In this document: positions 7,164-27,157 of the stretch, piece by piece
How positions within the stretch are numbered: position 1 is the first letter of the stretch
How the letters are laid out: each line of letters begins with the position of its first letter
Virus record (IMG/VR): IMGVR_UViG_3300006875_000127
Location: 1 to 27,157 of that record
Source of the DNA: a virus
Strand: one strand, 5' to 3'
Length of the DNA stretch: 27,157 nucleotides
Position numbers and translations under genes: made by a program
The notes under the pieces: model-generated
Databases searched by the model: none
Seen by the model: only the letters and a program-made list of their open reading frames with translations
What the model was told of the DNA's origin: nothing

Positions 7164-8822
7164 TTAGATAACGTTTGTATCGGCTACGATAACGCGACCG
7201 TAGAATTCCGGACGAACAAGCTTCATAGCGTAACGAGTCATGATACCTTTTCTAGGAGTGAAGGTATTAGGATCGTACACAAGCGGAGTCATGATCAATG
7301 GAACGTAAGGAGCGTATACAGCACCGCACTCAAGGAATTGAGTTCCACGGAAACCAAGAAGGATAACGTTCTCAGTCATATAAGGATTCTTATAGACTTT
7401 GTAACGGCTATTCAAACTACCGATTTTTTGTACACCAAAAGCATACTTCATTGTATCAGCAGCTCCGTCAGTATCAGCAGCAAATCCAGGAATTGATTCG
7501 AGGATTGTAGCGATAGTAGGAGATACTACCATGAAGTTAGCACCACCGCGTAAAGTACGTTGGTGGATTTGGTTAGAAATCTTTTGGAGTTTGATACCCA
7601 AAGTTTGGAACCAAGTCATTTGTGTGTAATAAACACCAGCAGTATTGGAATCAAACTCAGTGTATGATTTATTGATTTGGCTACCAACTTTAGCTGACCA
7701 GTATTCTGTACCGGCGCCAGCATTTTGGATCAACATATCAAGTACTTCAAGATCGATTTCCAATGAAACGTGCTCAGAAAGAAGACCTGTCAATTCAGCT
7801 TCAGCATCAAGTGCGTGATAAGCATTGAGGTCTTGAGCGAATTCTGGAGTCCACTGAGCTTTCAACTTACGAGTTTTAGCAGAAATGGTCTCAGATCTCA
7901 TACCAACGTTGATCTCAGGGATAACGATTGATGAAGGAGAGTATACATTAGGAACTGATGGAGTAGATGAACGATCTTCGAAATCGCCACGGCTATTGAA
8001 ATCAGTCTTTTTGTTATACCAAACTGTAAACGCAGAAGTCAATGTGGGGATTTCCGCAGTTGATGCAGTAACAAAGAAATTAATATATCCAGATGTGTAA
8101 GTCGCATAATCTTGATAGTTTTTAGCTACAGTTACAGATCCTGATGCTATAGCGAAAGCTCTAACACCTAGATCATTGATATCTGAAGATATGCTTGATG
8201 TAGCAACTGTTAATTTCTTAATGTTACCTGCAGCAACAGAAGCAGAAAGATCAGCATTGAATCCAACATCTGCCCAAGAAGCAGAAGCAGCAGTAACAGT
8301 GAGTAAAGAAGCGCTGAATTGGTTAAGTGAATAACCAAACTGACCAGCTCCGTAAAGACCGCCTGCAGCAGCGTTACCGAAGTTAGCAGTAGCAGTACCA
8401 TAAACTGACTGTCCAGATGTGAAATTAGGATTACCAGCAGTTCCGTATTGGAAATCCAAGAAGAATACTAAACCTGCAGGAAGATTCATTGGCTGAACGC
8501 TAACGAATTCTTTAGCTGCGATTTGTCCGAAGATCTTACGAACCAACGGAAGAGCAACACCAGCCCATTGTTCACCAGAACCAGGAGTGAAAGTTGCACC
8601 AACGCCAGTACCAAGACCAGCAGATGTTTGAGAAGACTCGACTACAAGTTGCTTTGCTTGATTTTCGAGGATAACGGCCATTGTAGAGCGATCGTGATCG
8701 CTAAGGCCTTCAAGAAGACCAGATTTTGCCCACTTTTTAGTAAGTTTAGAGGCAACGCTATACTGGTCGGAGTAAGCTGTTTGAGCTGACTCATTGAGTA
8801 GTGATTGTACTAAATTTGCCAT
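7164..8822 (-). CDS. gp23: Major capsid protein (T4 gp23 family)
   Basis: A 552-aa protein (T4 gp23 is 521). It shows gp23 landmarks: an N-terminal segment with LENQAKQLVVE (about 52-62), the F-V-S-V-Q-P-M-N-L-P-A-G block (about 106-117), TRKLKAQWTPEFAQDLNAYH with A-E-L-T-G-L-L-S-E-H, and the C-terminal VYAPYVPLIMTPLVYDP and GIMTRYAMKLVRPEFYGRV. In T4 the first 65 residues are removed by the prohead protease after an L-x-E. Here Glu62 (L-V-V-E before SSQTS) is the positional equivalent, although V-V-E departs from the L/I-x-E rule. Codons are richer in GC (about 42% in a sampled line) than in most neighbours, as expected for the most highly expressed gene. It lies 21 nt after the scaffold gene, with an A/T-only leader and no Shine-Dalgarno sequence. 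Confidence 0.95.
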   Translation of the reverse strand: MANLVQSLLNESAQTAYSDQYSVASKLTKKWAKSGLLEGLSDHDRSTMAVILENQAKQLVVESSQTSAGLGTGVGATFTPGSGEQWAGVALPLVRKIFGQIAAKEFVSVQPMNLPAGLVFFLDFQYGTAGNPNFTSGQSVYGTATANFGNAAAGGLYGAGQFGYSLNQFSASLLTVTAASASWADVGFNADLSASVAAGNIKKLTVATSSISSDINDLGVRAFAIASGSVTVAKNYQDYATYTSGYINFFVTASTAEIPTLTSAFTVWYNKKTDFNSRGDFEDRSSTPSVPNVYSPSSIVIPEINVGMRSETISAKTRKLKAQWTPEFAQDLNAYHALDAEAELTGLLSEHVSLEIDLEVLDMLIQNAGAGTEYWSAKVGSQINKSYTEFDSNTAGVYYTQMTWFQTLGIKLQKISNQIHQRTLRGGANFMVVSPTIATILESIPGFAADTDGAADTMKYAFGVQKIGSLNSRYKVYKNPYMTENVILLGFRGTQFLECGAVYAPYVPLIMTPLVYDPNTFTPRKGIMTRYAMKLVRPEFYGRVIVADTNVI

Positions 8823-10045: not shown

Positions 10046-10681
10046 TTATGAGTTTACGCAACAGTATCCTCCCATGTTGCAAATTATATCTGATACTAAC
10101 CTATTAGCTCTATCATATTTACTTATGTAATTAGGAGAATAATTATATGATTCGTTTATACCTGCTACAGGTCTAACGTATGCTCCAAACGTTGATGGAG
10201 TTGATACAAAATCCCAACATATTAATTCTAAATCGTCTTCTACTTGAACAAGACCTTCGCCGATTGGCGAAGTTGATCCCATCGCTCTCGAAGAAATTCC
10301 GACAGTGATATTGTTTTCAAATAGCTGCCTAAGAATATTACCAGAAGGAGTAGGTAAAATTTCGATATCGCCGTATAAATTTTTTCCATCCCACCAAAGT
10401 TTGAGTATATTGTGAGAAACATTTTTAAGATTTATAACTGATGTTTCTGGATGATCTAATTCTCCTAAAGCCCTATTTTCAGTTACTGGTCCTTTGATAT
10501 ATAATTCTACTTGTGATTTTAAAGTTTCATATGGATATATTCTTCTATTCGCGTTTGGTTTATCACACGCTTGAACCAATCCTGACACAACCATATTATT
10601 AGATCCATTTCTAGTGGATTCTAATATTACCTTTTTTGTAGGAGTAAATAGGTTATGTTCTATTAATAGTAGTTTATTCAT
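10046..10681 (-). CDS. gp21: Prohead core protease (T4 gp21-like serine protease)
   Basis: A 211-aa protein (T4 gp21: 212) with the prohead/herpesvirus-assemblin type protease core. It has a His in GELDHPET (His77), the catalytic-serine segment TVGISSRAMGS (about 127-136, Ser130/131), and a downstream F-V-S-T-P-S-T element (about 158-164). An R-x-Y-P motif (NRRIYPYETL, about 45-54) is also typical. It cuts scaffold, capsid and internal proteins during head maturation; the T4 enzyme prefers L/I-x-E sites. That matters here because many proteins in the window carry such a site near the N-terminus. The gene itself begins MNKLLLIE, with L-I-E at residues 6-8. It sits 4 nt after the 532-aa gene and before the 140-nt gap. 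Confidence 0.92.
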   Translation of the reverse strand: MNKLLLIEHNLFTPTKKVILESTRNGSNNMVVSGLVQACDKPNANRRIYPYETLKSQVELYIKGPVTENRALGELDHPETSVINLKNVSHNILKLWWDGKNLYGDIEILPTPSGNILRQLFENNITVGISSRAMGSTSPIGEGLVQVEDDLELICWDFVSTPSTFGAYVRPVAGINESYNYSPNYISKYDRANRLVSDIICNMGGYCCVNS

Positions 10682-12284: not shown

Positions 12285-12288
12285 ACTA

Positions 12289-12296
12289 ATAAATAT
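12289..12296 (-). promoter_or_regulatory. ATATTTAT intergenic octamer upstream of the 532-aa gene
   Basis: Coding-strand ATATTTAT, 4 nt before the ATG of the 532-aa gene and 1 nt after the stop of the 42-aa gene. With only 4 nt to the start codon, a classical -10 box for this gene would be hard to explain, which argues for some other role. Confidence 0.35.
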
Positions 12297-12297
12297 G

Positions 12298-12426
12298 TTA
12301 ACGTCCTTGTCCTTGGTAATTTCTTTCTTTACGATCGTGCCTATTAAAACTTTTAGCTGCTTTACCTTTTTTACGTTTACCGAAAGTTATTTTGTTACTA
12401 GTAACTCCGCCTTTTGCTTTTGCCAT
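12298..12426 (-). CDS. Small, very basic protein, 42 aa
   Basis: ATG at 12424-12426, TAA at 12298-12300. The protein begins MAKAKGGVTSNKITFGKRKK and ends FNRHDRKERNYQGQGR. About a third of its residues are Lys or Arg and it contains no Cys. It fills the space between two larger genes exactly: the start codon directly follows the stop of the 431-aa gene (TAA-ATG), with 13 nt to the next gene. It may bind DNA or RNA, or be a small core protein in the position of T4 gp67/gp68, but T4 gp67 is acidic, so it is not a simple equivalent. The function is unknown. Confidence 0.75.
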   Translation of the reverse strand: MAKAKGGVTSNKITFGKRKKGKAAKSFNRHDRKERNYQGQGR

Positions 12427-14605: not shown

Positions 14606-16507
14606 TTATATTAAATCAGGTTGGATGTTATCTTCACTTAATAGTTCTGGTCCTTTGAATAACTTTGTTTGTCTACCCATGTGATCTAACATGTTTTTGT
14701 TTTTTACATATGTACTCATAGTATTTTCATATGCCATTGGTCCGCCTTTATATTGAACTTTAAATGCATCTTTGCTTTGTGAAGCGGCTGATCCCATTTC
14801 TTTATCTCCGAGGGGATCTCTACCAAATGGAGATTGATCTGTACCAATTTTTGATTGGTATTTTTTAGGTCTACCAGGTCCTTCTTTTGAAGTTTCGTCG
14901 TATCCTGTTGGAACATCTATTGGTCCGTCTCCTTTACCACCATATAAACTAGCTAATTGATGAGGAGTGCCAAATACTTGGCCAGTCTCTGCAGGATCAT
15001 TTCCTTCTTCTTCGATTTGTTTCAATCTAAATGCTTTCTTTTTATCTTCAGCAATTAAATCTTCCATTTCAAAATATTGATCTTCTGAGAATTGGAATAT
15101 TTTGTCGTAAATAAAATCTTTTGGTAATAAATTTCCTTCCATTGCAGATTTTGCAACTTCTACTTTTTCTTTAAATAAAGCAATTCTCTCTTGTTCGTAT
15201 ATAATTGAAGGGTTTGTTAGATCTAAACTAAAATTAGCAGCAGATTCATTTGTATATCCATGTGCATATAAATGAACAAGAGCTATTTTAGTGAGTTCTG
15301 ATAATATTATTCTTTGAATTCTTTCAATTGTTCTAGCAAATCTAATATCTTCTGCTGCTAATGTTGCTTTACCAGTTAAATCCTTTTCATAACCCATAAA
15401 TGCTTTAGGAATCTTTAAAGCAGCAAATAACTTCTCTCTAAAATATTGTACGTCTTCAATGGCATTATATTCTAATCCTTTCGCTGTATCAATTTTAGTA
15501 GTAGTATCATTTCCACGAACTGGTATAAAGAAATCTTCTAGTAAATTTTGTTGATTGTATTTTAAATTATATTGACCTGTACTAGGATCAATAAGAGGAG
15601 TTTTTTTCATCTTATTAATCATTCTCTGCATATAATTCTCTACTTCATTAGGTGGTATTGCGCCAACATTAACATAAAATGTTCTTCTTTCTGGAGCTCT
15701 TGTAATTCTATGGATTAACATGGCATCCTCAATAAGAGTATACTGTTTGAACAATTTCCTAGCAGGTTCTAGATATGATCTTCCATATGGTAAATAATTT
15801 ACGTCACCAGCTAATCTAAAATGCGCCATTTCATAATTATCAAAAAATACTCCAGGATCTTCATTATTATATGCCGAAGTAAAACCTGATGTTGTTCCTA
15901 ATGCTCCAAGTGGATCGTACTTAAATCTTACTTCATTTGGATTTTGCGGATTATATCCCTCTTGTCTAATTACATTATAAGCGCTAAATGGTATGACATT
16001 GTAAACTCCATATTTATCTGCTATTTCCAATTTTAAATAAAAATCTCCATACTTACACATATTTCTAACCCACGACCACATTGTAAATTCTATATTTAAA
16101 ACCGAATAGAATAAATTATATAATATTTTTTGTATATTCTCATCAGACGATCTAATTTGCAATACTTCTCCCTGTTCATTTTTAAGAGTACATTCATCAG
16201 CAACAATATCTAAAGCTGAGGCAACGATTGCATCTGTATCCATTGCATCATAATCAGCATATATTTGAACACGCGCTGATTGGTAATTTTGAGCTAAGTT
16301 TAAATTAACTCCGTATGATGTAGATGTTGTATATATTTTATGAAATCTATCTACTAAAGCATTAGTTTGGATTACACCGTTGTTTTGTATACGATCTACG
16401 TCTATTACTTTGAGTGCTCCGTCTCCATTATTTCTTATAATGACATCTGTAGAAAAGAGTCTTCTAAGAGCTGAAAATAAATTATCTTGTTTGTTTTGTT
16501 CTGCCAT
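14606..16507 (-). CDS. gp20: Portal protein (T4 gp20 family)
   Basis: A 633-aa protein downstream of TerL. It has the gp20-type core: RVQIYADYDAMDTDAIVASA with LDIVADECT (about 76-104), the wing/clip region (MWSWVRNMCKYGDFYLKLEI), the stem-helix part (ARKLFKQYTLIEDAMLIHRI followed by RAPERRTFYVNVGAIPPNEV), and the crown helices (YFREKLFAALKIPKAFMGYE, then FARTIERIQRIILSELTKIA). Twelve copies form the vertex through which DNA is packaged and to which neck proteins bind. It is longer than T4 gp20 (524 aa) because of a Gly/Pro/Lys-rich, probably flexible C-terminal tail (about 515-600). The gap to terL is 9 nt, so the two are co-expressed. Confidence 0.95.
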   Translation of the reverse strand: MAEQNKQDNLFSALRRLFSTDVIIRNNGDGALKVIDVDRIQNNGVIQTNALVDRFHKIYTTSTSYGVNLNLAQNYQSARVQIYADYDAMDTDAIVASALDIVADECTLKNEQGEVLQIRSSDENIQKILYNLFYSVLNIEFTMWSWVRNMCKYGDFYLKLEIADKYGVYNVIPFSAYNVIRQEGYNPQNPNEVRFKYDPLGALGTTSGFTSAYNNEDPGVFFDNYEMAHFRLAGDVNYLPYGRSYLEPARKLFKQYTLIEDAMLIHRITRAPERRTFYVNVGAIPPNEVENYMQRMINKMKKTPLIDPSTGQYNLKYNQQNLLEDFFIPVRGNDTTTKIDTAKGLEYNAIEDVQYFREKLFAALKIPKAFMGYEKDLTGKATLAAEDIRFARTIERIQRIILSELTKIALVHLYAHGYTNESAANFSLDLTNPSIIYEQERIALFKEKVEVAKSAMEGNLLPKDFIYDKIFQFSEDQYFEMEDLIAEDKKKAFRLKQIEEEGNDPAETGQVFGTPHQLASLYGGKGDGPIDVPTGYDETSKEGPGRPKKYQSKIGTDQSPFGRDPLGDKEMGSAASQSKDAFKVQYKGGPMAYENTMSTYVKNKNMLDHMGRQTKLFKGPELLSEDNIQPDLI

Positions 16508-16516: not shown

Positions 16517-18115
16517 TTATATTAGCCATCTTAAATCTTCTGGTTGTTGACCTTGAGACGAAGGAATATTCATGTTCCAAGGATTTTGATTTATGTGGCT
16601 ATTAGCATTATATAATATATTATCTCCACTTGTTTTAGAATAACTATTAAGTGCGTTATATGTTAAGCTTTCTGCTGTTTTCCTATATCTCAATGATGTT
16701 TCTCTCAAATACATTCCAGTCGCAAAAGATAACACTAAATCATCATTGTATCCATTCATAGCTTGTTGACGATTATTTTTCCAAATAAAAACTCGAAGTT
16801 CTTCTAATAATCTTCTTGACTTTATATTTGCAATCTTATTTTCTATACAATCTCGCATTTTTTCTATTGCTAAAGGTCTAGTTCTTTGATTCATCGAAAA
16901 ACCTGGAACTAATCCGTTAGATTTTTCATATTTGTTTATATATGTCATAAAATCAGAATTTCCTTCTGATCTGAGACTATAATAAACATTTGTATATCCG
17001 CTTTCTACCACAGATTGAACAACGTCCCATCCAATATTATTATTTTCTACGACAAGTAGTGCCTGATTGTATTCGGTGGCTGCAGAAATTAAAACATTTG
17101 CGTATTCTCTTGTACCCAATTGTGACTGATACTCTGCAACTTGAGTCATTGTATCAATATCAATAACATGAAATGCTGAATAATCTGAACCATCTCCTCG
17201 AGCAACGTCTGCTACTACTACATAGTATTTCATCGGATCAGGATATTCCCATATCCAATAGCCTTTATCAATTCCTCGCTTTTCTTCGGGTTCGCATATC
17301 ATATTTTGTTCATACCAAGTAAGTATATCGGGTTCAATAACAGTATTACCTGAGCTTAAGAAAGAGCAATCGCACTCTTGAGCGGCATTTCGTTTACCTA
17401 GATTAACGTCCTGTTCGTCTCTCCAAGATTGATCTCTTTCTGGATGTACCGACCATGGTAAAGATATTGGTATAAAATTATTCTCTTGCTTTTGAGCTGT
17501 ACTATATGTTTTGTGAAACCAGTTACCCATACCGTTCGGAGTGGATAATGCTATACATCCACCACCTGTGGCAAGAGTCATTTTTGCAGCGGTGTAGATT
17601 GTTTCAATATTATCTATGAATGCAGCTTCATCAATTACCAATAGAGAGACAGCTTCAGAACGACCGGAGTCTCCAGCAGCTGATACGGCTTTAATCTGAG
17701 AGCCATTTGTTAGTCTTAAGCTTAACCTATTGTTTTCTATTGCAGTTGCTCCTATTCTAAGCCAGACTGGCAGGTTATCGTACGCAAACCTTACTTTTGT
17801 AACCATGTTTTTGGCTACATCTTGTTTGGTCGCTATAACAAGAACGTTCTTATCCTTGTTAAATATCATTAACCACAAAGAATAAGCTGATACGAGTGTA
17901 GATATACCTAACTGCCTAGATTTATTTATTATAGAATCAGGATACTTTTGAAAGAGTCTGAGTACTTTCTCTTGGAACGGATAAAGATCAAACAATTGAC
18001 GACCCCTAGTAGGATGCTGAATAGTGTAATACTTCTTCATGAAGTACACGGGATCCTGTGAGCACTTAATAAATTCTTCCTTTATTTTTTCTTTTAAATT
18101 TTGCTGTTCGCCCAT
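16517..18115 (-). CDS. terL: Terminase large subunit (T4 gp17 family)
   Basis: A 532-aa packaging motor with nuclease. ATPase: adenine-binding-like F-Q at 47-48, variant Walker A KSRQLGIST (65-73), Walker B LLVIDEAAF (158-166), and the coupling motif STPNG (191-195). RNase H-like nuclease: Asp303 in VADVARGDGSD, Glu357 in VVENNN, and Asp458/459 in NDDLVLSFATG. The R-Q-x-G-x-S/T Walker A and the domain layout match T4-like terminases. The small subunit (gp16) is not seen next to it. The gene begins at an ATG 4 nt from the octamer and just after a terminator that ends the envelope cassette, so it probably starts a new transcript for the head module. Confidence 0.97.
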   Translation of the reverse strand: MGEQQNLKEKIKEEFIKCSQDPVYFMKKYYTIQHPTRGRQLFDLYPFQEKVLRLFQKYPDSIINKSRQLGISTLVSAYSLWLMIFNKDKNVLVIATKQDVAKNMVTKVRFAYDNLPVWLRIGATAIENNRLSLRLTNGSQIKAVSAAGDSGRSEAVSLLVIDEAAFIDNIETIYTAAKMTLATGGGCIALSTPNGMGNWFHKTYSTAQKQENNFIPISLPWSVHPERDQSWRDEQDVNLGKRNAAQECDCSFLSSGNTVIEPDILTWYEQNMICEPEEKRGIDKGYWIWEYPDPMKYYVVVADVARGDGSDYSAFHVIDIDTMTQVAEYQSQLGTREYANVLISAATEYNQALLVVENNNIGWDVVQSVVESGYTNVYYSLRSEGNSDFMTYINKYEKSNGLVPGFSMNQRTRPLAIEKMRDCIENKIANIKSRRLLEELRVFIWKNNRQQAMNGYNDDLVLSFATGMYLRETSLRYRKTAESLTYNALNSYSKTSGDNILYNANSHINQNPWNMNIPSSQGQQPEDLRWLI

Positions 18116-18201: not shown

Positions 18202-19491
18202 CTATTGTTTGAATATCCTACTACGATACCACACACCATTACAATAAATTCTCACATAGTACATTCCTGTAGGGAAGTTAGTTAAATCAATGTGGATTTG
18301 ATTACTACCCGCAATGGCTGTCATAGTGAATTGTGATACCATATGATATTGTGAGTTGTAAACATATACACGTACTGTACCACCTGTAGTCAAATTCAAT
18401 GTTACATTTGAACCTGTTGATGTTGGGTTAGGGTATGCTGTTAAATAGTTATTTGTATTTGTTGAATAGGGATACGTAGTATCTCTTGGTATTCTTACGG
18501 TATCACATTTTTCAGCAATACAATTTGGATAAACCATTCTCAAACATACTCGGTACAAACCAGGGTACATATACCTATGGTGTGGATTGTATGCACTATC
18601 TGCTGTACCGTCACCAAATGTCCACCTAACGCTTGTTGGATTTGATGTACTAATAGTTGTATTTGTAAAATGTACCAACCCTCTTGATGTGTCTCTGGTC
18701 CAAGTATAATTTGCGGGGAAGTTACAAGCGGTTGAAGAGCAAGTATTCATCACCATATACCATTGACTCCATGTCCGAGTGATACAGTTATAGTGTGCGC
18801 TGTCCTTTATGTAACCAGTAGTTCCGGCGAATGTACAATTCCTATATCTGAATGTATCTCTTTCAGTACATGGTGTAGTGTTGTTGTTTGGAATAACAAT
18901 CGAGTCACATATATCAGTAAAGCAAGAAGTGTATTGAATCCGAAGGCAAACTGCGTATATGCCAGGATGGGTGTATGTATGGTGAGTACCATATCTGGAT
19001 GCAAATGCTGTGTCCATAGTACCATCACCAAATGTCCACTTCACTTTTACCAATGTACCATTTGCGGTTGTTGGAGTTGTATTAGTAAACCAAACAGTTC
19101 TATTGTTGCTAGTGTCTAATACGGAGTAGAAACTTGCTGGCGTATTGCATGGAGTACCGGCCGTTTGAGCGATTTGAATAACGGTCCCAGTCGAATCATA
19201 ACACCACATAACACTTCCGTTGTATCTTCTAATAATATGCGATACCCAATATGTGCCATTGTTTGCGTATGTGTGAACTGGGTTTGGCAGTGATGAACTT
19301 GTACCATCACCAAATATCCAAAGGTGGTATGTGTAGAGCGAATCACCAACTACGCCTGGGAAGAATACCACTGTTGATTGAGAAGGTCTTGTAGTGGTAA
19401 ATGCAGCTGAACACCCTGTTGGTGGCGGTGTTTGAGCTAGTGAACTGATTGCCAAAGCCAATGCAACCAAAACCGAATAAAGTTTTTTCAT
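18202..19491 (-). CDS. Secreted PKD-repeat protein with T9SS C-terminal sorting domain (phage-borne)
   Basis: A 429-aa protein with a Sec signal peptide (MKKLYSVLVALALAISSLAQ, cleavage near 18-20). It has three PKD-type repeats with the W-x-F-G-D-G-T core: 58-84, 152-183 and 290-317, each ending with a Y-x-x-x-G-x-Y strand. The C-terminal about 80 residues (about 350-429) match a Bacteroidota type A sorting domain: Y-P-N-P (353-356), V-R-V-Y-V-Y-N, then L-T-N-F-P-T-G-M-Y-Y-V-R-I-Y, ending in R-I-F-K-Q. Such domains guide proteins through the type IX secretion system to the outside of the cell. It is unusual in a phage and has higher GC (about 42% in a sampled line) than its surroundings, which suggests acquisition from a host. 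It may coat the infected cell, change adhesion or block further phage. Several Cys are present, possibly disulfide pairs. Confidence 0.9.
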   Translation of the reverse strand: MKKLYSVLVALALAISSLAQTPPPTGCSAAFTTTRPSQSTVVFFPGVVGDSLYTYHLWIFGDGTSSSLPNPVHTYANNGTYWVSHIIRRYNGSVMWCYDSTGTVIQIAQTAGTPCNTPASFYSVLDTSNNRTVWFTNTTPTTANGTLVKVKWTFGDGTMDTAFASRYGTHHTYTHPGIYAVCLRIQYTSCFTDICDSIVIPNNNTTPCTERDTFRYRNCTFAGTTGYIKDSAHYNCITRTWSQWYMVMNTCSSTACNFPANYTWTRDTSRGLVHFTNTTISTSNPTSVRWTFGDGTADSAYNPHHRYMYPGLYRVCLRMVYPNCIAEKCDTVRIPRDTTYPYSTNTNNYLTAYPNPTSTGSNVTLNLTTGGTVRVYVYNSQYHMVSQFTMTAIAGSNQIHIDLTNFPTGMYYVRIYCNGVWYRSRIFKQ

Positions 19492-19525
19492 ACTATTTGT
19501 TTGTTTTTGTTTTAATTAAAAAACA
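19492..19525 (-). promoter_or_regulatory. A-rich translation-initiation leader of the T9SS-cargo gene
   Basis: Coding strand reads TTAATTAAAACAAAAACAAA and continues CAAATAGT before the ATG, with no Shine-Dalgarno sequence. Such A-rich, SD-less leaders are typical of Bacteroidota genes. This supports the host assignment and a host origin for the gene. Confidence 0.5.
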
Positions 19526-19918
19526 TTATGGGCAATTCGTGCTATCAGCCCCCTCTTTCCAGAAATTTCCTGTATAGGTTCCACCAACGCTAGTTGTGGT
19601 CAATTTCATCAGGTTGCAATTACAGCCAAATTCAACATATGATTTTACAATAGTGCTGCCACTTATCTTTACACAAAGAGAATCTCCTTCCATCCACCAT
19701 TTATGTGGGTTGGGTATGGCATCAGCAATGGTTCCGAACTGACCATTTGTCGAGTAGATGGTATATTGCAAACTATCTTTGTATTCATAAAGGGTATTGC
19801 CAAGCGGGCCAATCCATCTTCCTACAACAGTGCAGTTGGGCTGTACGGATGAGGATTTCTCACATGCGGTTAGGGCTGTCAGGAGACAAACTAATAGAAC
19901 AAAATAAACTTTTTTCAT
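19526..19918 (-). CDS. Small lipoprotein, 130 aa
   Basis: It starts MKKVYFVLLVCLLTALTAC with lipobox L-T-A-C and Cys19 as the lipidation site. The mature part (about 110 aa) looks like a small beta-barrel/lipocalin-like lipoprotein (TVVGRWIGPLGNTLYEYKDS, then SLQYTIYSTNGQFGTI), with C-N-C and a final Cys. The sequence context and GC level (higher than the phage average) match its neighbour at 18202, so the two were probably gained together. Phage lipoproteins often act in superinfection exclusion (for example T5 Llp) or as outer-membrane spanins. It lacks the short, Pro-rich look of many o-spanins, so exclusion or surface modification is the more likely role. This is inference. Confidence 0.8.
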   Translation of the reverse strand: MKKVYFVLLVCLLTALTACEKSSSVQPNCTVVGRWIGPLGNTLYEYKDSLQYTIYSTNGQFGTIADAIPNPHKWWMEGDSLCVKISGSTIVKSYVEFGCNCNLMKLTTTSVGGTYTGNFWKEGADSTNCP

Positions 19919-19933
19919 AATAATTGTTTTTAT

Positions 19934-20359
19934 TTATTTAGTTAAAATTATATATCCAGCAATTCCAATTACTAATCCGCCCCAGAATCCTACTTTGTAT
20001 ATTCTGTTAACGAATTTTTGTTTCTTGTATTGCTTATTTACGCGATCGTATTCTTTTTCTAGCCCATCGTACATTGTAATATAAGCATCTTTAGCCATTC
20101 TTTCATTACGCACTTGCTCTGTTAAATTAAGTTCCTTTTTCTTTTGTGTATCAATAACACTATCTTTTAAGGATATGATTCGATCCTGTATACTTAATTC
20201 TTCATAGGCTAAGTCCAGCATATCTCTAGCTGAATCACCTGATATTAGATCAAGCGATATTTGTCTAGCTACTGGATATGGTAAGCAAACGGAGGATGTG
20301 TCTTGGCTGTAACTATTGAGAGTCAATAAAGTTAATAGTAATATTAGTAATGATTTCAT
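19934..20359 (-). CDS. Exported coiled-coil protein with C-terminal TM helix (possible lysis/spanin component)
   Basis: A 141-aa protein with an N-terminal signal peptide (MKSLLILLLTLLTLNSYSQ, predicted cut before DTSS). A short Cys-containing start (VCLPYPVARQ) is followed by a long charged coiled coil (about 45-115), and a C-terminal TM helix at about 121-140 (YKVGFWGGLVIGIAGYIILT). Similar signal-peptide, CLP motif, coiled-coil proteins are common in Bacteroidota phages, by recollection, and are usually unannotated. Together with the N-anchored coiled-coil protein at 20587 it could span the periplasm during lysis. No endolysin is visible in the window, so a lysis role is inferred only from topology. 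Confidence 0.7.
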   Translation of the reverse strand: MKSLLILLLTLLTLNSYSQDTSSVCLPYPVARQISLDLISGDSARDMLDLAYEELSIQDRIISLKDSVIDTQKKKELNLTEQVRNERMAKDAYITMYDGLEKEYDRVNKQYKKQKFVNRIYKVGFWGGLVIGIAGYIILTK

Positions 20360-20373
20360 ATTATTTAATATAT

Positions 20374-20574
20374 TTAGAGATATTTAGAGTATTTCTTTCT
20401 AGCTTCTTTTTGATCTTCAGGACTTAATTGATTAAAGATATTTCGGAGTTTAGTCTTATCATAATAGTCACTGCCTTTTTCATATTGTTTGATAGCGGAT
20501 TCTAAATCTGATATTGGTTTAAAATTAGATTCTTTCTCTTCGGCTATCATTTTTATTATATCTTTTAATTTCAT
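20374..20574 (-). CDS. Small charged protein with capsid-targeting-like N-terminus, 66 aa
   Basis: It begins MKLKDIIKMIAEEKESN. The first 12 residues form an amphipathic helix ending in I-A-E, the same final tripeptide as the T4 internal-protein targeting peptide (MKTYQEFIAE). The rest is charged and helical (SAIKQYEKGSDYYDKTKLRN, then LSPEDQKEARKKYSKYL). It lies inside the membrane-protein cassette but has no signal peptide or TM helix, so it may be a small internal-head protein or a regulator. Gaps are 14 nt and 12 nt on either side. The function is unknown. Confidence 0.65.
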   Translation of the reverse strand: MKLKDIIKMIAEEKESNFKPISDLESAIKQYEKGSDYYDKTKLRNIFNQLSPEDQKEARKKYSKYL

Positions 20575-20586
20575 TATATATTGAAT

Positions 20587-20925
20587 TTAAAAATTGTAAC
20601 GATCTTTAAAAAAGCTATCTACTTGATTTGGTGTAAATTTTCTAGCGTTATCGCCTTTTTCTTTATACACCTCTTTAATGATAGTAGTTTTACCTTTGTT
20701 ATTATCTAATCTAGTATTCAATTCTATGATTTGTTGATCAAACTCGTATTGAAGACTATCAAATTGCAGTATGTAAAATTCTAGCTCTTTATTTTTTTCT
20801 TCTAAGCTATCAATACGACTAATCAATGCTTGATCTGGTTTGTATTCTTTTGCAGGAAATAAATCTGGTAGGAATATGTAGACTAAAATTAGTCCTACTA
20901 AACCGTATAATATATATCTATCCAT
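20587..20925 (-). CDS. N-anchored coiled-coil membrane protein (i-spanin-like)
   Basis: A 112-aa protein with an N-terminal TM helix (about 5-24, ILYGLVGLILVYIFLPDLFP), then a charged coiled coil (about 34-75, IDSLEEKNKELEFYILQFDS), and a C-terminal F-T-P-N-Q-V-D-S-F-F-K-D-R-Y motif. This topology (inner-membrane anchor, periplasmic coiled coil, no signal-peptide cleavage site) is that of an inner-membrane spanin, which works with an outer-membrane partner to fuse the membranes at lysis. The nearby lipoprotein or the exported coiled-coil protein could be its partner. No sequence identity to Rz is claimed. Confidence 0.7.
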   Translation of the reverse strand: MDRYILYGLVGLILVYIFLPDLFPAKEYKPDQALISRIDSLEEKNKELEFYILQFDSLQYEFDQQIIELNTRLDNNKGKTTIIKEVYKEKGDNARKFTPNQVDSFFKDRYNF

Positions 20926-20928
20926 ATT

Positions 20929-21657
20929 TTATTTGTTTTTAAATGTTTTTGGATTGAATTTTTTAAATGATAAACCCTTACCTGATGGATCATATATGAA
21001 TCTTCTTACTTTATCTTCGTAAAAATCAGGTTCTAGAGCAATATATATTTTATTTTTATATTCTTTTCCAAAATGTAAAATTTCTTTTTCATCGCTAACA
21101 AAAAATATTTTCAGTACCTTTGAATTTATTAAAAATTCAGTATCAGTTAAATTAGTAACTAACATTCCTTCACCAGCAAAATCTTGACCTGTTCTGTGGT
21201 CATATGTCCAACTTTGAATAGGTGATCTTGGTTTATAGTCAATCGGTTTTTTATATAACCAATAGTCTTCTTTTAACCGAGTCCAATCTTGTATTTTACT
21301 GCTTCTTAACTGAGATAGGGTTGCTTTACTTATATCTCCAACTCCTCTATACACTACAGTTCCGTTAGGAACATTGGGTTTAAATATTATAGGGTATTTT
21401 TTTTTGAGTTGAAACAGTTTATCCTTAGCTTTAGTAAGAAACTTCATTGAGTAAGAAGGCATACTTGTCCAATCATTTAAAGCATCGTATAAATCATTTT
21501 CAAATTCTGTGTTAGGTTCTGATTTGGATTTGTAACCTTGTAATTTTGCGAAAGCTGGATCGTTGTCTAAGTCAGCGAAAACAACATTACCGAGAGGTTT
21601 AGTTGCGGTAGCGTTGTCGCTCATTTCCTTTTCTGTCAATATATCTAACAGTTTCAT
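20929..21657 (-). CDS. Putative ADP-ribosyltransferase, possible internal head protein
   Basis: A 242-aa protein with the R-S-E signature of arginine-type ADP-ribosyltransferases in the right order. It has Y-R-G (Arg104 in TVVYRGVGD), then a Q-S-W-T-Y segment (Ser149 in SPIQSWTYDHRTG, the S-T-S equivalent), then E-x-E (Glu190-Lys-Glu192 in SDEKEILHFG, with the usual following I-L). In T4, Alt, ModA and ModB modify host RNA polymerase and ribosomal proteins, and Alt is injected from the head. The N-terminus MKLLDILTE ends in L-T-E, a gp21-type cleavage site, so it may be packaged like Alt, but the call rests on motif spacing alone. It overlaps the upstream gene by 1 nt (TAATG). Confidence 0.62.
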   Translation of the reverse strand: MKLLDILTEKEMSDNATATKPLGNVVFADLDNDPAFAKLQGYKSKSEPNTEFENDLYDALNDWTSMPSYSMKFLTKAKDKLFQLKKKYPIIFKPNVPNGTVVYRGVGDISKATLSQLRSSKIQDWTRLKEDYWLYKKPIDYKPRSPIQSWTYDHRTGQDFAGEGMLVTNLTDTEFLINSKVLKIFFVSDEKEILHFGKEYKNKIYIALEPDFYEDKVRRFIYDPSGKGLSFKKFNPKTFKNK

Positions 21658-22025
21658 TAGCTTTCTGTTTCTTCTGTTTCATCATCAGTAGAGGGATTTT
21701 CTACTGCATCTATTTTCTTTTTAAGATCTTTTATTTTTTGTGGAAGATTTCCAATTGCTTTTTTGTAATCTGAAATGCTACCTTTCATTTTTCTACCTGT
21801 TGGAGTATCTTCTGTGTATTTAAAAATTACGTCTTTTACTTTAGCTTGTAAAATTTTTAATTCTTGTTTATACTTATCCAGATTTCTCATATCCTTTTCC
21901 GTAGATTTCATGTCCGATTTCTTAGGTTCAGGAGTCTCATCAGGATCTACGTCTTCTATTATTCTAATCTTACTTATTAATGTAAGATTATTTTCTATGA
22001 GATATTTTTGTAAATTAAAAGACAT
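21657..22025 (-). CDS. Uncharacterised coiled-coil protein, 122 aa
   Basis: Not recognised. It begins MSFNLQKYLIENNLTLISKI, with L-I-E (9-11) and a second I-I-E (22-24) near the N-terminus, both fitting the prohead-protease rule. An acidic Pro-rich segment (DVDPDETPEPKK) follows, then a Lys-rich coiled coil (about 45-105) and an acidic tail (STDDETEETES). It is 2 nt from the 558-aa gene upstream and overlaps the putative ADP-ribosyltransferase by 1 nt (TAATG), so the two are translationally coupled. It could be a partner, inhibitor or packaging adaptor of that enzyme; this is inference. Confidence 0.65.
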   Translation of the reverse strand: MSFNLQKYLIENNLTLISKIRIIEDVDPDETPEPKKSDMKSTEKDMRNLDKYKQELKILQAKVKDVIFKYTEDTPTGRKMKGSISDYKKAIGNLPQKIKDLKKKIDAVENPSTDDETEETES

Positions 22026-22027
22026 TG

Positions 22028-23704
22028 TTATGCAAATTCTATTTCTTGTGTATAAACTTCTTCAGGAACTTCAACATCAATTCCCATTGCAGTTAGCAAA
22101 CCATTAATTCCTGATTTTATCAATTCTATAAAGTATTCAATTTTTTCAAGTATCCACTTATATAGATTTTCTATTTTCTCTTTAATAAAATTTATTGCTT
22201 TATTAAACCAATTTTCATATAATTCTATTTTATCTTCATTTAACAATCCTTTATTTTTTTTAGATTCAAATGCATTATACGCTTCTCCTAATTTTGATGT
22301 CTTATTAATTATATCTTCTAAGCCTATTCTTAGTGATGAATAGAAAGAATATCCTACTTTTTCACCACCTTTTTTATAACTAGTACTTTTCATTGTGACA
22401 GCGAATTTGACTTTTCCGAGTATAGAATCTATTGCTACACTTTTTTTACTTGTCATATCTTTTAATACAGCAGTAGAAGCATCTCCGGAAATCGCTAGAA
22501 CATAATTCGCTTCTGCTGGGGATTTTTTACCAAATTTAGTGAATCCCGATGCCGCTTCGTACACAAACGCTCTTTTAAATTCAGGACTCTTATTGAATTG
22601 CTTTTCGATATATTCCATAAACTCTTTATGTGCAATTTGAGCGTCGTCATATATTTTTCGCGCTTTTTTATTCGTTGCGTCTAATTCTGCTTTTGGAGAT
22701 TTTGATAACTGTTTAGTATTTAAATCGCTTGTTCTTGTTTTTCTTGCAAAACTTTGTATTATATCAATAGCCTTATTTTCAGCTGTTTTTGAAATACCCG
22801 ACATTTCTGCAGCCGCCATGACAGTAGCTATTGCTTCTTTTGGTTCTGGGCTCATTAACTGAGAAGCTCCTTTTTTTACTGAAATCCTAAAAGAACTGTC
22901 TTCTGACTTTATGTCGGTTTTTGGCTCATCAACTTTTTTAGTACCATGTGCATCGTGCCAAAATTCTGTTACTGCGTCTTTTCGTTGTGAATATTTCGCT
23001 AATTTTTGTTTTGTTTTTAGTTGATTTTTAACTATTTTTTTTATCGATTGAAAAAGATTTTCATATTGTTTATATCCTTTAGGCGCATTTTCACTTCCTG
23101 CGATTGCTGCGTTCCATAAATCAACTGAGATCTGTTCAAATTTAGATGCGCCCTCTTTTCCTTCTATTAGTTGCGTTAATATTTTTTTAGATTCTTCTAA
23201 AGTCTCAGTTTCTTCTTCACCGCCCCCTTCTTCACTCCCCGTTTCAGAAGTTTCTGCTGGTGGTATTTCTTCTGCTGATCCTGTTTCTGCTTCTCCCGCT
23301 TCTTCAGCTCCTTCCCCGCCCTTTGTTTTAAGCGGACTTCCCCATCTAAGCAATCTACTAATTGCCAGCATTGCTCTTTGTTTTTCTCCAGCCATAAATA
23401 ACAAGTAATTCTTTCCTCCGATTGTTGCTTGATAAGTTTCTCCCATATATGTCATAAAAAAGTATTGTCCATTATGCAATACTATTTTAAACATTGTGGG
23501 TTTAGGCGCTATTATGTATATCGCAGTTAAATATTCTTCAAAATTGTCTCCAAGTAAATATTCTAAATTCTCTCGTAAACTTTGATACTTCTTAAGGATA
23601 AATCCCATAGGATCATCCTCAAAAGTTTTTGGAGGCGTTTTCATAACCTCCTCCTGATCTTCGTTTATTAATTTCTTTAATATTTCTAATTCATCAAAGT
23701 TCAT
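22028..23704 (-). CDS. 558-aa protein with PD-(D/E)XK-like motif and acidic linker, possible internal head protein
   Basis: A multi-part protein. The N-terminus (MNFDELEILKKLINEDQEE) has an L/I-x-E site (I-N-E, 13-15). Residues about 40-120 form a small alpha/beta domain (MFKIVLHNGQYFFMTYMGET); 128-172 are Glu/Gly-rich and probably disordered. Residues about 190-460 contain PKTDI (261-265) followed 10 residues later by ISVKKG (274-279). This P-D/T-D...S-x-K arrangement is that of PD-(D/E)XK nucleases, with Asp264 and Lys277 as candidate catalytic residues. A second conserved-looking block follows (AFVYEAASGFTKFG, 379-392). The C-terminal about 80 residues are amphipathic helices. Similar proteins are, from memory, present but unannotated in marine T4-like phages. 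Nuclease activity is unproven. It overlaps the upstream gene by 11 nt. Confidence 0.7.
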   Translation of the reverse strand: MNFDELEILKKLINEDQEEVMKTPPKTFEDDPMGFILKKYQSLRENLEYLLGDNFEEYLTAIYIIAPKPTMFKIVLHNGQYFFMTYMGETYQATIGGKNYLLFMAGEKQRAMLAISRLLRWGSPLKTKGGEGAEEAGEAETGSAEEIPPAETSETGSEEGGGEEETETLEESKKILTQLIEGKEGASKFEQISVDLWNAAIAGSENAPKGYKQYENLFQSIKKIVKNQLKTKQKLAKYSQRKDAVTEFWHDAHGTKKVDEPKTDIKSEDSSFRISVKKGASQLMSPEPKEAIATVMAAAEMSGISKTAENKAIDIIQSFARKTRTSDLNTKQLSKSPKAELDATNKKARKIYDDAQIAHKEFMEYIEKQFNKSPEFKRAFVYEAASGFTKFGKKSPAEANYVLAISGDASTAVLKDMTSKKSVAIDSILGKVKFAVTMKSTSYKKGGEKVGYSFYSSLRIGLEDIINKTSKLGEAYNAFESKKNKGLLNEDKIELYENWFNKAINFIKEKIENLYKWILEKIEYFIELIKSGINGLLTAMGIDVEVPEEVYTQEIEFA

Positions 23705-24158
23705 GATATCCTGTATTAGCTTGATCTATATAATTTTGTGCTTGAGAAATGTGATCTTGAATCCATCCTGGAAGGTTAATTTCATTAGTTCCAATTTTTT
23801 GGGATAATTCTGTTGCATTTTTTATTATATCTTGAAGCAGATTTTGCGCCATGCCAACTTCATGATCTTGCGATTGTTGATTCATATCGTCAAATCCACA
23901 TTCGGTACATATTCCTTTTTCCATTATTGATCCACATTCAGCACATATACCTTCATTTTCTTTAATTGGAACGCATTTATCTTTTCCATTTTCTGTACCT
24001 GCATATCTATATCCTCTCCAACATGGTTTACCATCAATGCCTTTTTTCTTTTCGCTTTCGTTTTGAGAAAGTTTCGGTTTAGAGGTTTTATACGTTTTCA
24101 TACCTATATTATAGGCATCTCCCATATTTTCTTTAAGTAGCTCTTTTAGTTTTATCAT
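23694..24158 (-). CDS. Zinc-ribbon protein with capsid-targeting-like N-terminus, 154 aa
   Basis: It begins MIKLKELLKENMGD, an amphipathic helix ending in L-K-E (8-10). A Cys-containing motif (GIDGKPCWRGYRYAGTENGK, 40-59) resembles a block that recurs in phage structural proteins. A zinc ribbon follows with C72, C75, C84 and C87 (CxxC-x8-CxxC). The C-terminal part is helical (NATELSQKIG, then GWIQDHISQAQNYIDQAN). The order is targeting-like peptide, C-W-R-G-Y block, zinc ribbon, helical tail. The function is unknown, but virion association is plausible. It overlaps the previous gene by 4 nt (ATGA) and the next by 11 nt. Confidence 0.7.
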   Translation of the reverse strand: MIKLKELLKENMGDAYNIGMKTYKTSKPKLSQNESEKKKGIDGKPCWRGYRYAGTENGKDKCVPIKENEGICAECGSIMEKGICTECGFDDMNQQSQDHEVGMAQNLLQDIIKNATELSQKIGTNEINLPGWIQDHISQAQNYIDQANTGYHEL

Positions 24159-24454
24159 GATCCATAATAGTTTTTTATATACTCTGGATATTTGGTTTGT
24201 AGAGTGTTTAGCAGCGTTGCTTTTGTGGATCTCAATGCTTTTAGACTCATTAAAATGTCTTTATCTTTTATAGAATGCTTTTTTACAGCGCTATTGAGAT
24301 CACTAATTAGATCATTAATATTTTCTATGATGCCAGAAAAATCTGGATAGTATTCGACATCCCACGATATTTTTCCAGTTTCAGGATCAACACCTGTTTG
24401 TGTTGTCTTGAATTCTGTACCAGACATTTCTAATAATTCTTTAAGACTTTTCAT
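24155..24454 (-). CDS. Uncharacterised small protein with capsid-targeting-like N-terminus, 99 aa
   Basis: It starts MKSLKELLEMSGTEF, sharing the M-K-x-L-K-E-L-L core with the next gene and ending its first helix in L-L-E (7-9). A short beta-type stretch (TGVDPETGKISWDVEYYPDF) is followed by helices (NINDLISDLNSAVKKHS, LMSLKALRSTKATLLNTL). No catalytic or metal motif is seen. Start and stop are well placed: a 3-nt gap upstream and a 4-nt overlap (ATGA) downstream. It is likely a small internal or core protein if the targeting model is right; otherwise unknown. Confidence 0.65.
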   Translation of the reverse strand: MKSLKELLEMSGTEFKTTQTGVDPETGKISWDVEYYPDFSGIIENINDLISDLNSAVKKHSIKDKDILMSLKALRSTKATLLNTLQTKYPEYIKNYYGS

Positions 24455-24457
24455 ATT

Positions 24458-24784
24458 TTACCATTTTCTACATGACCAATATCTTGGTGTAGTTCTATCT
24501 TTTGCTGTATGACATTTGTGTCTTGCTCTAAATGACTTTCTTCTTTTTGGATTACTCTTTTTTATTTTTACACCCTTTTGTCCAAAGTTAACTTTTACTA
24601 CATTACCTTTTTTGTTTTTAACATATACTTTGAACTTTTTTACATCACCTGCCATTGGTTTACCTAATGGAACATCTCTTCCTTGATATTCGGCCTCTTC
24701 TAATTTATTCCAACGCTCAATTATATATTCAGCCAAACAGGCTGGGCAGAATTCTCCTTCATTTATTTCATGGATATGATCCAT
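24458..24784 (-). CDS. Cys-containing basic protein with SFRARHKC...RYWSCRKW ending, 108 aa
   Basis: The N-terminus has F-C-P-A-C (12-16), a possible half zinc site, and I-N-E at 7-9. The middle is Lys/Gly-rich and beta-like (VKKFKVYVKNKKGNVVKVNF, then GQKGVKIKKSNPKRRKSFRA). The C-terminus, H-K-C...Y-W-S-C-R-K-W, gives two more Cys and a His. This R-A-R-H-x-C...R-Y-W-S-C ending is a feature I recall from hypothetical proteins of marine T4-like phages. The four Cys plus His could bind one metal across the chain. The protein is strongly basic, so contact with DNA is plausible. It is spaced 2-3 nt from its neighbours. Confidence 0.7.
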   Translation of the reverse strand: MDHIHEINEGEFCPACLAEYIIERWNKLEEAEYQGRDVPLGKPMAGDVKKFKVYVKNKKGNVVKVNFGQKGVKIKKSNPKRRKSFRARHKCHTAKDRTTPRYWSCRKW

Positions 24785-24786
24785 TA

Positions 24787-25158
24787 TTAATGTAAAAATT
24801 TAAGTTTATATTTAGTACTTTCTATTAATTCTACAACTGTATCTATTTGATTTTGTAAAAATGAATCTTGTGGTACTTGCTGTCTAGTAGATTCTACAAA
24901 TTTACAAAGTGCTTCAAAATACATTTCATAATTTTGATCTTCTCTAATACTAGCTGCCATTTTATATCCAGTTAATATTCCGTATCTACCTTGATAAGAT
25001 TCTACTAGTCCATCAATAAGAGGTATTATGCCATCATAATATGCATTTAGAGCCATGTGTGCAGCGTATGCTCCAGGTCCTTGCGCTTGTAAATGATATA
25101 TGTGCGCCTGATTTCTGGATTGCATTAGAGTTCCTACAAGTGTTGCAAATTGTTCCAT
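24787..25158 (-). CDS. Dps/ferritin-like protein with complete ferroxidase-site spacing, 123 aa
   Basis: An all-helical, small protein. His22, His34, Asp49 and Glu53 stand in H-x11-H-x14-D-x3-E order, the exact spacing of the Dps ferroxidase site (E. coli Dps H51, H63, D78, E82). Surrounding sequence also lines up: HLQAQGPGAYAAH with HWNMRGANFIAVH, and LIDGLVESYQGRYG with HLDTMAERAVQLGG. Dps proteins oxidise and store iron and protect or bind DNA. At 123 aa it is shorter than Dps (about 150-170) and lacks the Lys-rich DNA-binding N-terminal tail, so the fourth helix may be short. It may instead be a structural phage protein that kept the fold. The gap to the next gene is 2 nt. Confidence 0.6.
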   Translation of the reverse strand: MEQFATLVGTLMQSRNQAHIYHLQAQGPGAYAAHMALNAYYDGIIPLIDGLVESYQGRYGILTGYKMAASIREDQNYEMYFEALCKFVESTRQQVPQDSFLQNQIDTVVELIESTKYKLKFLH

Positions 25159-25791
25159 TTATTTTTTATTTTTATCCTTTTCTTTAAATTCTTTTTTCAT
25201 GTCTTTTTTAGATTTTTCTATCTTTTCTAATTTTGACATGAGATCGTCTACTTTATTTACGATAACTGCAACTTTTTCTCTATGAGATCCTGCTGATTTT
25301 GGATCTTCTTTAGCCATTTCCATGTGCTCTTTTCTCTTTTTTTCTAGAGTATCTATTGCTTTTTTTATTTTATTTACTACATCATCTTTTTTCTCTTCTA
25401 AAGCGTATGATTTTTTCTTATATTCTTCAAATAAATCATTTGCTACATCATTTGCTAGATCTTTGTCAGGGTAAACTGCATGAATTTGATCTCTCTGTAT
25501 TTGATGATCTGGTCCCAGTCCTACTAATGGATCAATTGGTTTTACTAATGATGTTAATTGACATCCAGTATACGGTTTTTGAACAGCATATAAAGTATTC
25601 AAAGATCCTGGGATAGTTTTTTGCATTTCGATATCTTCTTTCATTACTTTTTTGTTTTCGTCTGCGTGGATATGAAGAGCCGCTAAATAATCGTCTATAT
25701 CTCCTTTCGTACAACCAACTTTTTTTCCTCTTGTTCCATCAGATTTTTTCTTATATATACATTTATTTTTACGGTCTATAGAATATGGCAT
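25159..25791 (-). CDS. Uncharacterised Lys/Glu-rich protein, 210 aa
   Basis: Not recognised. The N-terminal about 40 residues (MPYSIDRKNKCIYKKKSDGT, then GCTKGDIDDYLAALHIHADE) include two Cys and look like a small compact module. A middle part follows (QKTIPGSLNTLYAVQKPYTG, VGLGPDHQIQRDQIHAVYPD). The C-terminal half is a very charged coiled coil (about 120-210, ending in KKEFKEKDKNKK). It lies 0 nt from the Dps-like gene (25158/25159), with the octamer 14 nt before its ATG. A structural or internal role is possible; no enzyme motif is seen. Confidence 0.7.
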   Translation of the reverse strand: MPYSIDRKNKCIYKKKSDGTRGKKVGCTKGDIDDYLAALHIHADENKKVMKEDIEMQKTIPGSLNTLYAVQKPYTGCQLTSLVKPIDPLVGLGPDHQIQRDQIHAVYPDKDLANDVANDLFEEYKKKSYALEEKKDDVVNKIKKAIDTLEKKRKEHMEMAKEDPKSAGSHREKVAVIVNKVDDLMSKLEKIEKSKKDMKKEFKEKDKNKK

Positions 25792-25814: not shown

Positions 25815-26384
25815 TTAAACTTCAGTGTTTTTCATTTTATCTAAATAACTCTTTATTTCTTCGTACATTTTCTTTTTATCTCCGCCTGCCCAGTTCTCAA
25901 TATCTCCTCCTTCAGTGACTATAGTATCTCTATCTTTATACCATTGTTCTAATGCCATCTCGATATCGCTTAAATTTGCATTTTTATTTTTATTAATCAT
26001 CTGTTTTTCATAATCTTCCCATTTACCTGAAATTTTCATCTGCGTTTCTTCTTTAATTACGCAATCGAAACATTTTTTATGCGTTGAATACATCTTTTTA
26101 TTAATTTCGTTAACTTTCATAGCTTTTGCACACGATGGACAAGTTATCGGTAATACTACTAACTTTTTTATAGAATCTAATTTTGTAATTGTTTGCTTAA
26201 TACCATTTTTTATAGTCCACGTTTTACCCGATTCTTCCCAAACATCTCCTTCTACATGATCAGAATAGTGCTTATCCCAACCAGACTGTGTCTTGGTTTT
26301 ATCCCCAGACTGTCCAGTTAAAATATTTCTCATTCTTTGTACTGTACTTTTAGAGAATTCTTTTTTTAATGTTGATTCTTTCAT
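25815..26384 (-). CDS. Zinc-ribbon protein, 189 aa
   Basis: The N-terminal half is basic and contains W-E-E-S-G-K-T-W-T-I-K-N-G (about 49-61), a small beta-hairpin-like element. A zinc-binding pair follows, C82-x2-C85 (ITCPSCAKAM) and C105-x2-C108 (HKKCFDCVIKE), spaced 19 residues apart, in a knuckle-like arrangement. The C-terminus is helical and charged (YEKQMINKNKNANLSDIEMA, then EQWYKDRDTIVTEGGDIENW). Such proteins occur in T4-like phages as hypothetical, from memory. It overlaps the HAD-fusion gene by 4 nt (ATGA), which points to coupled translation. It is likely nucleic-acid or protein binding; no catalytic domain is visible. Confidence 0.75.
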   Translation of the reverse strand: MKESTLKKEFSKSTVQRMRNILTGQSGDKTKTQSGWDKHYSDHVEGDVWEESGKTWTIKNGIKQTITKLDSIKKLVVLPITCPSCAKAMKVNEINKKMYSTHKKCFDCVIKEETQMKISGKWEDYEKQMINKNKNANLSDIEMALEQWYKDRDTIVTEGGDIENWAGGDKKKMYEEIKSYLDKMKNTEV

Positions 26385-27157
26385 AATCGAAACTTTTGTA
26401 ATATTGATATTGTTTTATCTACACTTTTGTGCGTTATTCCTATCGCGCCCATTTCTTTCCAAGGCGCTATATTTTTGTAAAAATCGTCTATTAATATGCA
26501 CTTAGAAATCTGTTCTTTTGGCATATTAGATAATATTTCGTGTTTTGCTCCTGTTTGTTTAAAAATAATATCTTGAGGCTCAGGATTTAAATGTTTTTTT
26601 ATCCACAAAAGCTTTCCTTTTTGCGCGTATTTAAAAGTACTTGGACTTGATAATATAATCGGATTGTATTTTGATATATAACTCCATAATTCTTTTGCTC
26701 CTGGAAAATATGGCATATCTGACCAAAATGTTATACCCACATCATCTATTGCTTTCTTAAGCATTATCGATCCCTTTTCTTTATAATATTCTTGAGGAGT
26801 TACTCCAAAAAAATGATCAAATTGAGCATCAAAGTCAGTTAATACTCCATCCATATCACAAAAAATCTTCATTTTTGATGATAAAACTTTTTGTAGTGTA
26901 TTAGTTAAATTAGATTCATATATTAATTCATTTCTTTTGCCATAGTTTCTCATAATAACTCCTGATATAGCATTAGCTTCATTTTCAATATCTGATCCTG
27001 CTGATCCTGCGTGAGGATACATTTTACCGAGTTCATTTTGTCTATGATGCACTAATTCATGAGAAAGAGTTCTTAGTATATCAGCTAAATTTCTATTTCC
27101 AATATAAACTTTTAATGATTTAGGAGTATTTTTATATTCACCAAAACTATGAATATC
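26381..27157 (-). CDS. Metallopeptidase-like / HAD phosphatase fusion, N-terminus beyond window (partial)
   Basis: The frame is open to the right edge (258 residues visible), so the N-terminus is missing. Residues 33-37 are H-E-L-V-H, a zinc-peptidase HExxH motif, with a downstream Glu (E58 or E60 in I-E-N-E-A-N-A) as possible third ligand. From about residue 95 a HAD domain begins: motif I D-M-D-G-V-L-T-D (101-108), motif II region L-S-S-P-S, a Lys-containing motif III, and motif IV I-D-D (223-225). The layout resembles C-type 5'(3')-deoxyribonucleotidases. A GTG at 27052 lies inside the HExxH motif and cannot be the true start. The HAD part could act in nucleotide salvage; the peptidase part is less certain. 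A separate HAD start at the internal Met before K-I-F-C-D is possible. Confidence 0.75.
   Translation of the reverse strand, partial: DIHSFGEYKNTPKSLKVYIGNRNLADILRTLSHELVHHRQNELGKMYPHAGSAGSDIENEANAISGVIMRNYGKRNELIYESNLTNTLQKVLSSKMKIFCDMDGVLTDFDAQFDHFFGVTPQEYYKEKGSIMLKKAIDDVGITFWSDMPYFPGAKELWSYISKYNPIILSSPSTFKYAQKGKLLWIKKHLNPEPQDIIFKQTGAKHEILSNMPKEQISKCILIDDFYKNIAPWKEMGAIGITHKSVDKTISILQKFRL

Follow-up and report, generated by a model that had tools for sequence, protein, structure and literature searches.

A candidate family of head-packaged ADP-ribosyltransferases in T4-like phages and an N-terminal tag shared with many unrelated proteins

T4 Alt, which is injected and acts on RNA polymerase, is an established head-packaged ADP-ribosyltransferase (ART). 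In many phages, packaged ARTs have been inferred by gene context; the passages of a survey that deal with them report ARTs in 30% of myoviruses and >40% of jumbo phages, assign ~44% of phage ARTs to contexts that suggest packaging, and mention two further T4 ARTs that are used later in infection (PMC9503650). According to the part of a second source that treats its processing, Alt is cleaved at ITE-6 and LTE-619 (PMC5694885). For the T4 capsid-targeting sequence (CTS), a section of a third names residues 4 and 7 of IPIII as the main targeting positions and residues 8 and 10 as required for processing, and it proposes that T4-like phages may use the CTS to bring various proteins into heads (PMC9026906). 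Here we analyse the 27,157 bases of virus record IMGVR_UViG_3300006875_000127 (hereafter the window, that is, the whole stretch), which most likely belongs to a large phage of Bacteroidota-type bacteria, judging from its genes. We focus on one of its genes, which encodes a putative mono-ART with a CTS-like N-terminus (Table 1).

An initial annotation had read this protein as an R-S-E class ART from Arg104 (YRG), Ser149 (QSWT), Glu190/Glu192 (EKEIL) and an N-terminal LTE. All of these are present as described: R104 lies in VVYRG, S149 in IQSWT and the glutamate pair in SDEKEIL, and LTE occupies residues 7-9. In one sequence alone, chance might well produce this R-S-ExE order. Homologues were gathered by three scans of viral contigs that returned 8, 10 and 23 overlapping loci. 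The resulting alignment comprises the window protein and 15 other distinct proteins, identical copies having been dropped and the near-identical L022, which contains an ambiguous base, omitted in favour of L023. The 15 relatives, all from uncultured virus contigs, are 26-40% identical to the window protein, and only 11 columns are invariant in 16/16 sequences (P89, R104, G105, Y141, P143, Q148, S149, W150, F160, E190 and E192). The four signature residues all fall within these 11 columns, and position 151 is [ST] in every member. Assuming interchangeable columns, the chance of this coincidence is 2.4e-6, a rough figure given that residue types differ in conservation.

Searches elsewhere returned no further relatives: tblastn against annotated phages matched neither the window protein nor its L015 homologue, one pattern scan of genome contigs yielded 64 pattern matches and no relative, and hidden Markov model (HMM) searches of PDB sequences found nothing credible for the family. 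Two phage contigs each carry two different paralogues, adjacent in one case (L014:7284-7961 and 7998-8666) and separated in the other (L012:683-1387 and 7998-8732).

Structure prediction, which the initial annotation had proposed as a check, lent support to its class assignment. An AlphaFold2 model built from the 16 sequences (predicted local distance difference test, pLDDT, 82.2; predicted template modelling score, pTM, 0.77) has R104 closing strand 101-105, S149 within strand 147-151, which precedes helix 154-160, and E190/E192 where strand 192-196 starts. An arginine ending the first core strand, an S-x-[ST] strand followed by a helix, and a late strand that begins with ExE are the features of an R-S-E class ART, and the predicted secondary-structure order fits the ART core. 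VIA-align comparison with 998 chains gave nine chains reaching Z 5 and none reaching Z 8, and all 50 rows listed are ART-superfamily entries, by title or established knowledge. Vis (4xzj; Z 5.6, root-mean-square deviation (rmsd) 3.6 over 133 residues) and ExoT (6gnn; Z 5.5, rmsd 4.1 over 136 residues) head this list, which also includes ExoS, Tpt1/KptA, TreX, C3bot, C2-I, Certhrax, VahC, Arr-2, Scabin, SpvB, pertussis and heat-labile toxins and a guanine-specific ART. This uniformity speaks strongly for a shared ART fold, but the Z values are modest. An earlier model (8 sequences, pLDDT 61.9) was set aside as too weak; its best Foldseek match, the RHS2 toxin domain 6aqk (E 0.0099, probability 0.89), is absent from the Foldseek rows listed for the better model.

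The window protein resembles T4 ModA and ModB in size (~200-240 residues) and in carrying YRG or WRG, S-x-[ST] and ExE; the ExE contexts read SDEKEIL in the window ART, SDEQEVM in ModA, REQEWM in ModB and SNEMEVI in Alt. ModA and ModB are not known to be packaged, unlike the ART as proposed here. With Alt it shares a T4-type phage that encodes a gp21-like protease, an N-terminal [LI]TE site and a similar ExE motif, but Alt, at 682 residues against 242 for the window ART, has a long additional region and is also cleaved at a C-terminal site. Its closest structural neighbours (Vis and ExoT/ExoS, Z 5.2-5.6) are only 11-15% identical in sequence and are secreted toxins, not phage head cargo.

In ARTs, the ExE pattern usually goes with arginine specificity. 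The invariance of the ExE pair, together with the position of Vis, ExoT and ExoS (which we take to be R-S-ExE toxins) at the top of the structural list, therefore argues against an ART fold that serves another chemistry, such as NAD+ hydrolysis or modification of a nucleic acid or small molecule. We regard that alternative as distinctly improbable, although Tpt1/KptA and a guanine-specific ART are among the listed neighbours and linkage chemistry is not readable from sequence.

The second distinguishing feature of the family lies at its N-terminus. The window ART starts MKLLDILTE, and the family as a whole starts MIKLK-IL-E or a near form; the window version is one residue shorter than MIKLKDILxE, with the spacing back from the glutamate unchanged. 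An [LI]xE motif occurs inside the first 12 residues of 15/16 members, the set including L023, which shows no tag at its called start, versus 213/3507 internal 12-mers of the same proteins. Across 10 ART-family loci, a non-random sample fetched for having a tagged gene, a start-anchored tag pattern fits 10/220 open reading frames (ORFs) unmatched by the family HMM, versus 7/5473 internal positions.

This N-terminus agrees in register with the T4 CTS. T4 gp24 starts MAKINELLRE, IPII and IPIII start MKTYQEFIAE, and Alt starts MELITE; in MIKLKDILxE, the hydrophobic residue at position 4, the acid at 6, the hydrophobic pair at 7 and 8 and the glutamate at 10 fall as they do in gp24 and IPIII, and IPI (MKTFKEFTST) is without Glu10. 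As with the CTS of IPII and IPIII and the gp24 propeptide, the tag spans ~10 residues, keeps the same register and is followed by unrelated bodies. Unlike the T4 CTS, of which T4 has a handful, the near-fixed octapeptide MIKLKDIL precedes 52 distinct protein bodies across the examined virus contigs.

That count derives from a survey with a degenerate DNA pattern for MIKLKDIL, whose matches in virus contigs number at least 120; the 80 listed loci were examined, among them ART-family contigs (e.g. L041 and L010). They hold 89 MIKLKDIL starts, 87 of which lead into an ORF that has 60 residues or more or is truncated at the edge of the locus, and Glu10, a position outside the search pattern, is present in 80/89. 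A permuted control of equal degeneracy, MKDLIIKL, matched 18 stretches in the whole collection, one opening such an ORF and two carrying Glu10; this control behaves like chance. Once the first 12 residues were removed, the 83 distinct tagged proteins of at least 60 residues fell into 52 single-linkage clusters. Pfam was run on 48/52 representatives, omitting the ART cluster and three more, and its matches included zeta toxin, NUDIX, RNase T-type exonuclease, RimK ATP-grasp, phage lysozymes, peptidase M23 and DUF5824. A second, different type of ART also carries the tag: the ORF at L015:11762-12244 starts MIKLRDILNE and matches Tox-ART-HYD1 just above the Pfam cut-off.

Close forms of the tag occur in a cultured phage. 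Within bases 13,000-159,000 of the 160,410 of Flavobacterium phage immuto, the exact octapeptide was not seen, and close forms open gp231 (L150:11570-11995), whose start MIKLIDLLTES has the tag in exact register, and gp082 (MRLLELLREA). Among 30 annotated N-termini in the first 50 kb of Microcystis phage Mel-JY01, no clear tag was apparent by eye.

Several side observations concern tagged N-termini. On the 181.6-kb phage contig L015, seven consecutive small ORFs (9774-13215) each begin with MIKLKxIL-E or a close variant (MIKLELLLKE) ahead of mostly different bodies; from its sequence, we presume this block to be a dense array of head cargo. Tagged proteins with 'YHFT' or 'YHYT' motifs (L039, L077, L070 and L097) were considered as further ARTs and not established as such: Pfam gave nothing above cut-off, L070 having a sub-threshold Tpt1/KptA match (E 0.044), so that the ORF at L015:11762-12244 is the one supported case of this kind. 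A second tag class (xFxLxKFLxENKLTxNS-like) recurs on otherwise different bodies in the window (21657-22025) and in immuto gp076, gp077 and gp092, and a third N-terminal form (MKKSELxxIIKEEIxxVxxE-like) recurs on different proteins at L015:5904-6233, 6240-7151 and 13247-13663 and in immuto gp080, gp094 and gp095.

Two features of head packaging occur together in the window phage: an N-terminal tag of ~10 residues with [LI]xE, and a T4-type prohead protease. Our best reading is that the ART is one of the cargoes in an injectome that T4-like Bacteroidota phages define by the tag, and we consider it likely that the family comprises new R-S-ExE mono-ARTs that are drawn into the prohead by the tag, cut by the protease and injected to modify one or more host proteins. 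In this sequence of events, the tag would draw the nascent ART into the prohead, the gp21-like protease would cut after the LTE glutamate, and the mature enzyme would stay packed with the DNA and enter the host with it; there, using host NAD+, it would modify its target or targets, probably on arginine, before phage gene expression. With somewhat less assurance, we also favour a broader proposition: that MIKLKDILxE and degenerate forms such as MKLLDILTE constitute a portable head-loading barcode of T4-like Bacteroidota phages, from whose first ten residues the whole injected set, with Nudix, zeta-toxin-like kinase, exonuclease and ATP-grasp enzymes and more than one type of ART among its members, could be read in genome sequence.

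The protein might instead be an active ART made after infection, as ModA and ModB are, with its N-terminus a conserved leader helix of some other role. T4 does deploy two further ARTs later, as the survey passages cited above indicate (PMC9503650). Several homologue loci are flanked by other kinds of genes, no head gene having been identified alongside by reading without profiles, and tagged lysozymes are hard to reconcile with injection into the cytoplasm. We nevertheless judge this alternative unlikely: the tag is common to unrelated bodies and ends in a protease site, LxE; T4 gp24 and IPIII agree with it in register; and a gp21-like protease is encoded in the window and, as profile phrog_207, in 8/8 tag-bearing records of at least 100 kb. 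The same profile was found in 2/4 ART-homologue records and in 1/7 control-pattern records (1/2 of those of at least 100 kb), a small control group.

Other results weigh against a packaged and injected ART. The strict T4-like tag register fits 8/16 family members, the window ART included, and does not fit the other eight. Phrog_207 was detected in 15/33 tag-bearing records of at least 25 kb, most of which are fragments, a circumstance that limits this co-occurrence test. Some tagged proteins are lysozymes and peptidases, whose action need not be in the host cytoplasm. Alignment by hhalign detected no convincing relation to ModA or Alt; for Alt, the 16-sequence alignment reached a probability of 0.2% over 10 columns. 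Against ModB, hhalign paired R104 with the YRG arginine and S149 with the DSFT serine, which speaks for an ART, but at a match probability of just 9%, a weak result. The packaging idea of the initial annotation gains independent support from the tag survey and the protease gene; the likeness to T4 ARTs is weaker than it implied, with no sequence relation to Alt and a weak one to ModB.

The ART assignment itself meets similar objections. Pfam and PHROGs, run on all 16 members, matched no ART model and gave only weak matches to families without a link to ARTs. All VIA-align scores lie below Z 8, where even unrelated folds may score, and this low Z is the main caution. Foldseek, taken alone on the better model, gave no match at E<=0.001 in the PDB or a viral library; the first viral rows, all short of that threshold, include a Tenacibaculum phage PTm1 protein and a Mycobacterium phage protein named ADP-ribosyltransferase. 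The silence of the profile libraries and the modest Z would suit an unrelated structural or scaffold-associated phage protein in which R-S-ExE is a coincidence. Four predicted catalytic residues that stay invariant at 26-40% identity, a secondary-structure order that is that of an ART, and 50/50 listed neighbours of one fold make such a coincidence very improbable.

New here are the ART family and a near-fixed tag on many unrelated cargoes; our literature searches found no description of either, which is not proof of absence. The family was missed by all libraries used, and its putative delivery tag can be read from sequence. If the proposed reading of the tag is true, sequence alone would suffice to list the effectors that uncultured phages inject, which act ahead of all phage gene expression, and the tag might be tried for loading cargo into Bacteroidota phage heads.

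Table 1. Coordinates of the window features discussed here.
Feature	Position	Strand	Basis or remark
ART gene, 242 residues; putative head-packaged mono-ADP-ribosyltransferase, new family	20929..21657	-	ORF, alignment, model, structural neighbours
Codon of invariant Arg104 (Y-R-G)	21346..21348	-	alignment
Codon of invariant Ser149 (Q-S-W-T)	21211..21213	-	alignment
Codons of E190-K191-E192 (ExE)	21082..21090	-	alignment
N-terminal putative capsid-targeting tag MKLLDILTE, LxE cleavage site after Glu9	21631..21657	-	sequence pattern, tag survey
T4-type major capsid protein	7164..8822	-	PHROG match; N-terminus MANLVQSLLNE also fits the tag pattern
gp21-like head maturation protease	10046..10681	-	phrog_207, E 7.5e-49; expected cut after [LI]xE
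Portal protein	14606..16507	-	phrog_213
Terminase large subunit	16517..18115	-	profile match; one border of the variable cargo interval
5'-3' deoxyribonucleotidase	26381..27052	-	forms the other conserved border together with 25815-26384
ORF with exact tag register, MIKLKELLKE	23694..24158	-	second such ORF of the window; unrelated body
ORF with second N-terminal tag class (FNLQKYLIENNLTLISK)	21657..22025	-	shared with immuto gp076 over 19 residues only

The gene setting of the ART is that of a T4-type phage, with PHROG profiles identifying a head module of terminase, portal, gp21-like maturation protease, major head protein and a PhoH-like protein. By its major head protein, the closest cultured relative is immuto (55.8% identity), whose head genes stand in the same order and are 39-57% identical to those of the window in the aligned parts. 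Between the terminase gene (16517-18115) and the homologue of gp086 (25815-26384), the window ORFs have little in common with immuto: those at 18202-25791 gave only three matches at E<=0.01, two of them short matches to gp079 and the third the 19-residue N-terminus of gp076. The ART gene lies inside this variable interval; its ATG is at 21657, and its start overlaps the stop codon of the preceding gene by one base.

Adjoining the terminase gene, the window also encodes (18202-19491) a PKD-domain protein whose start resembles a signal peptide and which ends in a sorting domain of the Por secretion system (type IX), above the Pfam cut-off; a Bacteroidota host is therefore indicated by this gene as well. 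A CHU_C type IX signal is carried by L015:850-4527. Judging from these signals, both may be proteins that the phages encode for display on the surface or for secretion, by way of the host secretion pathway.
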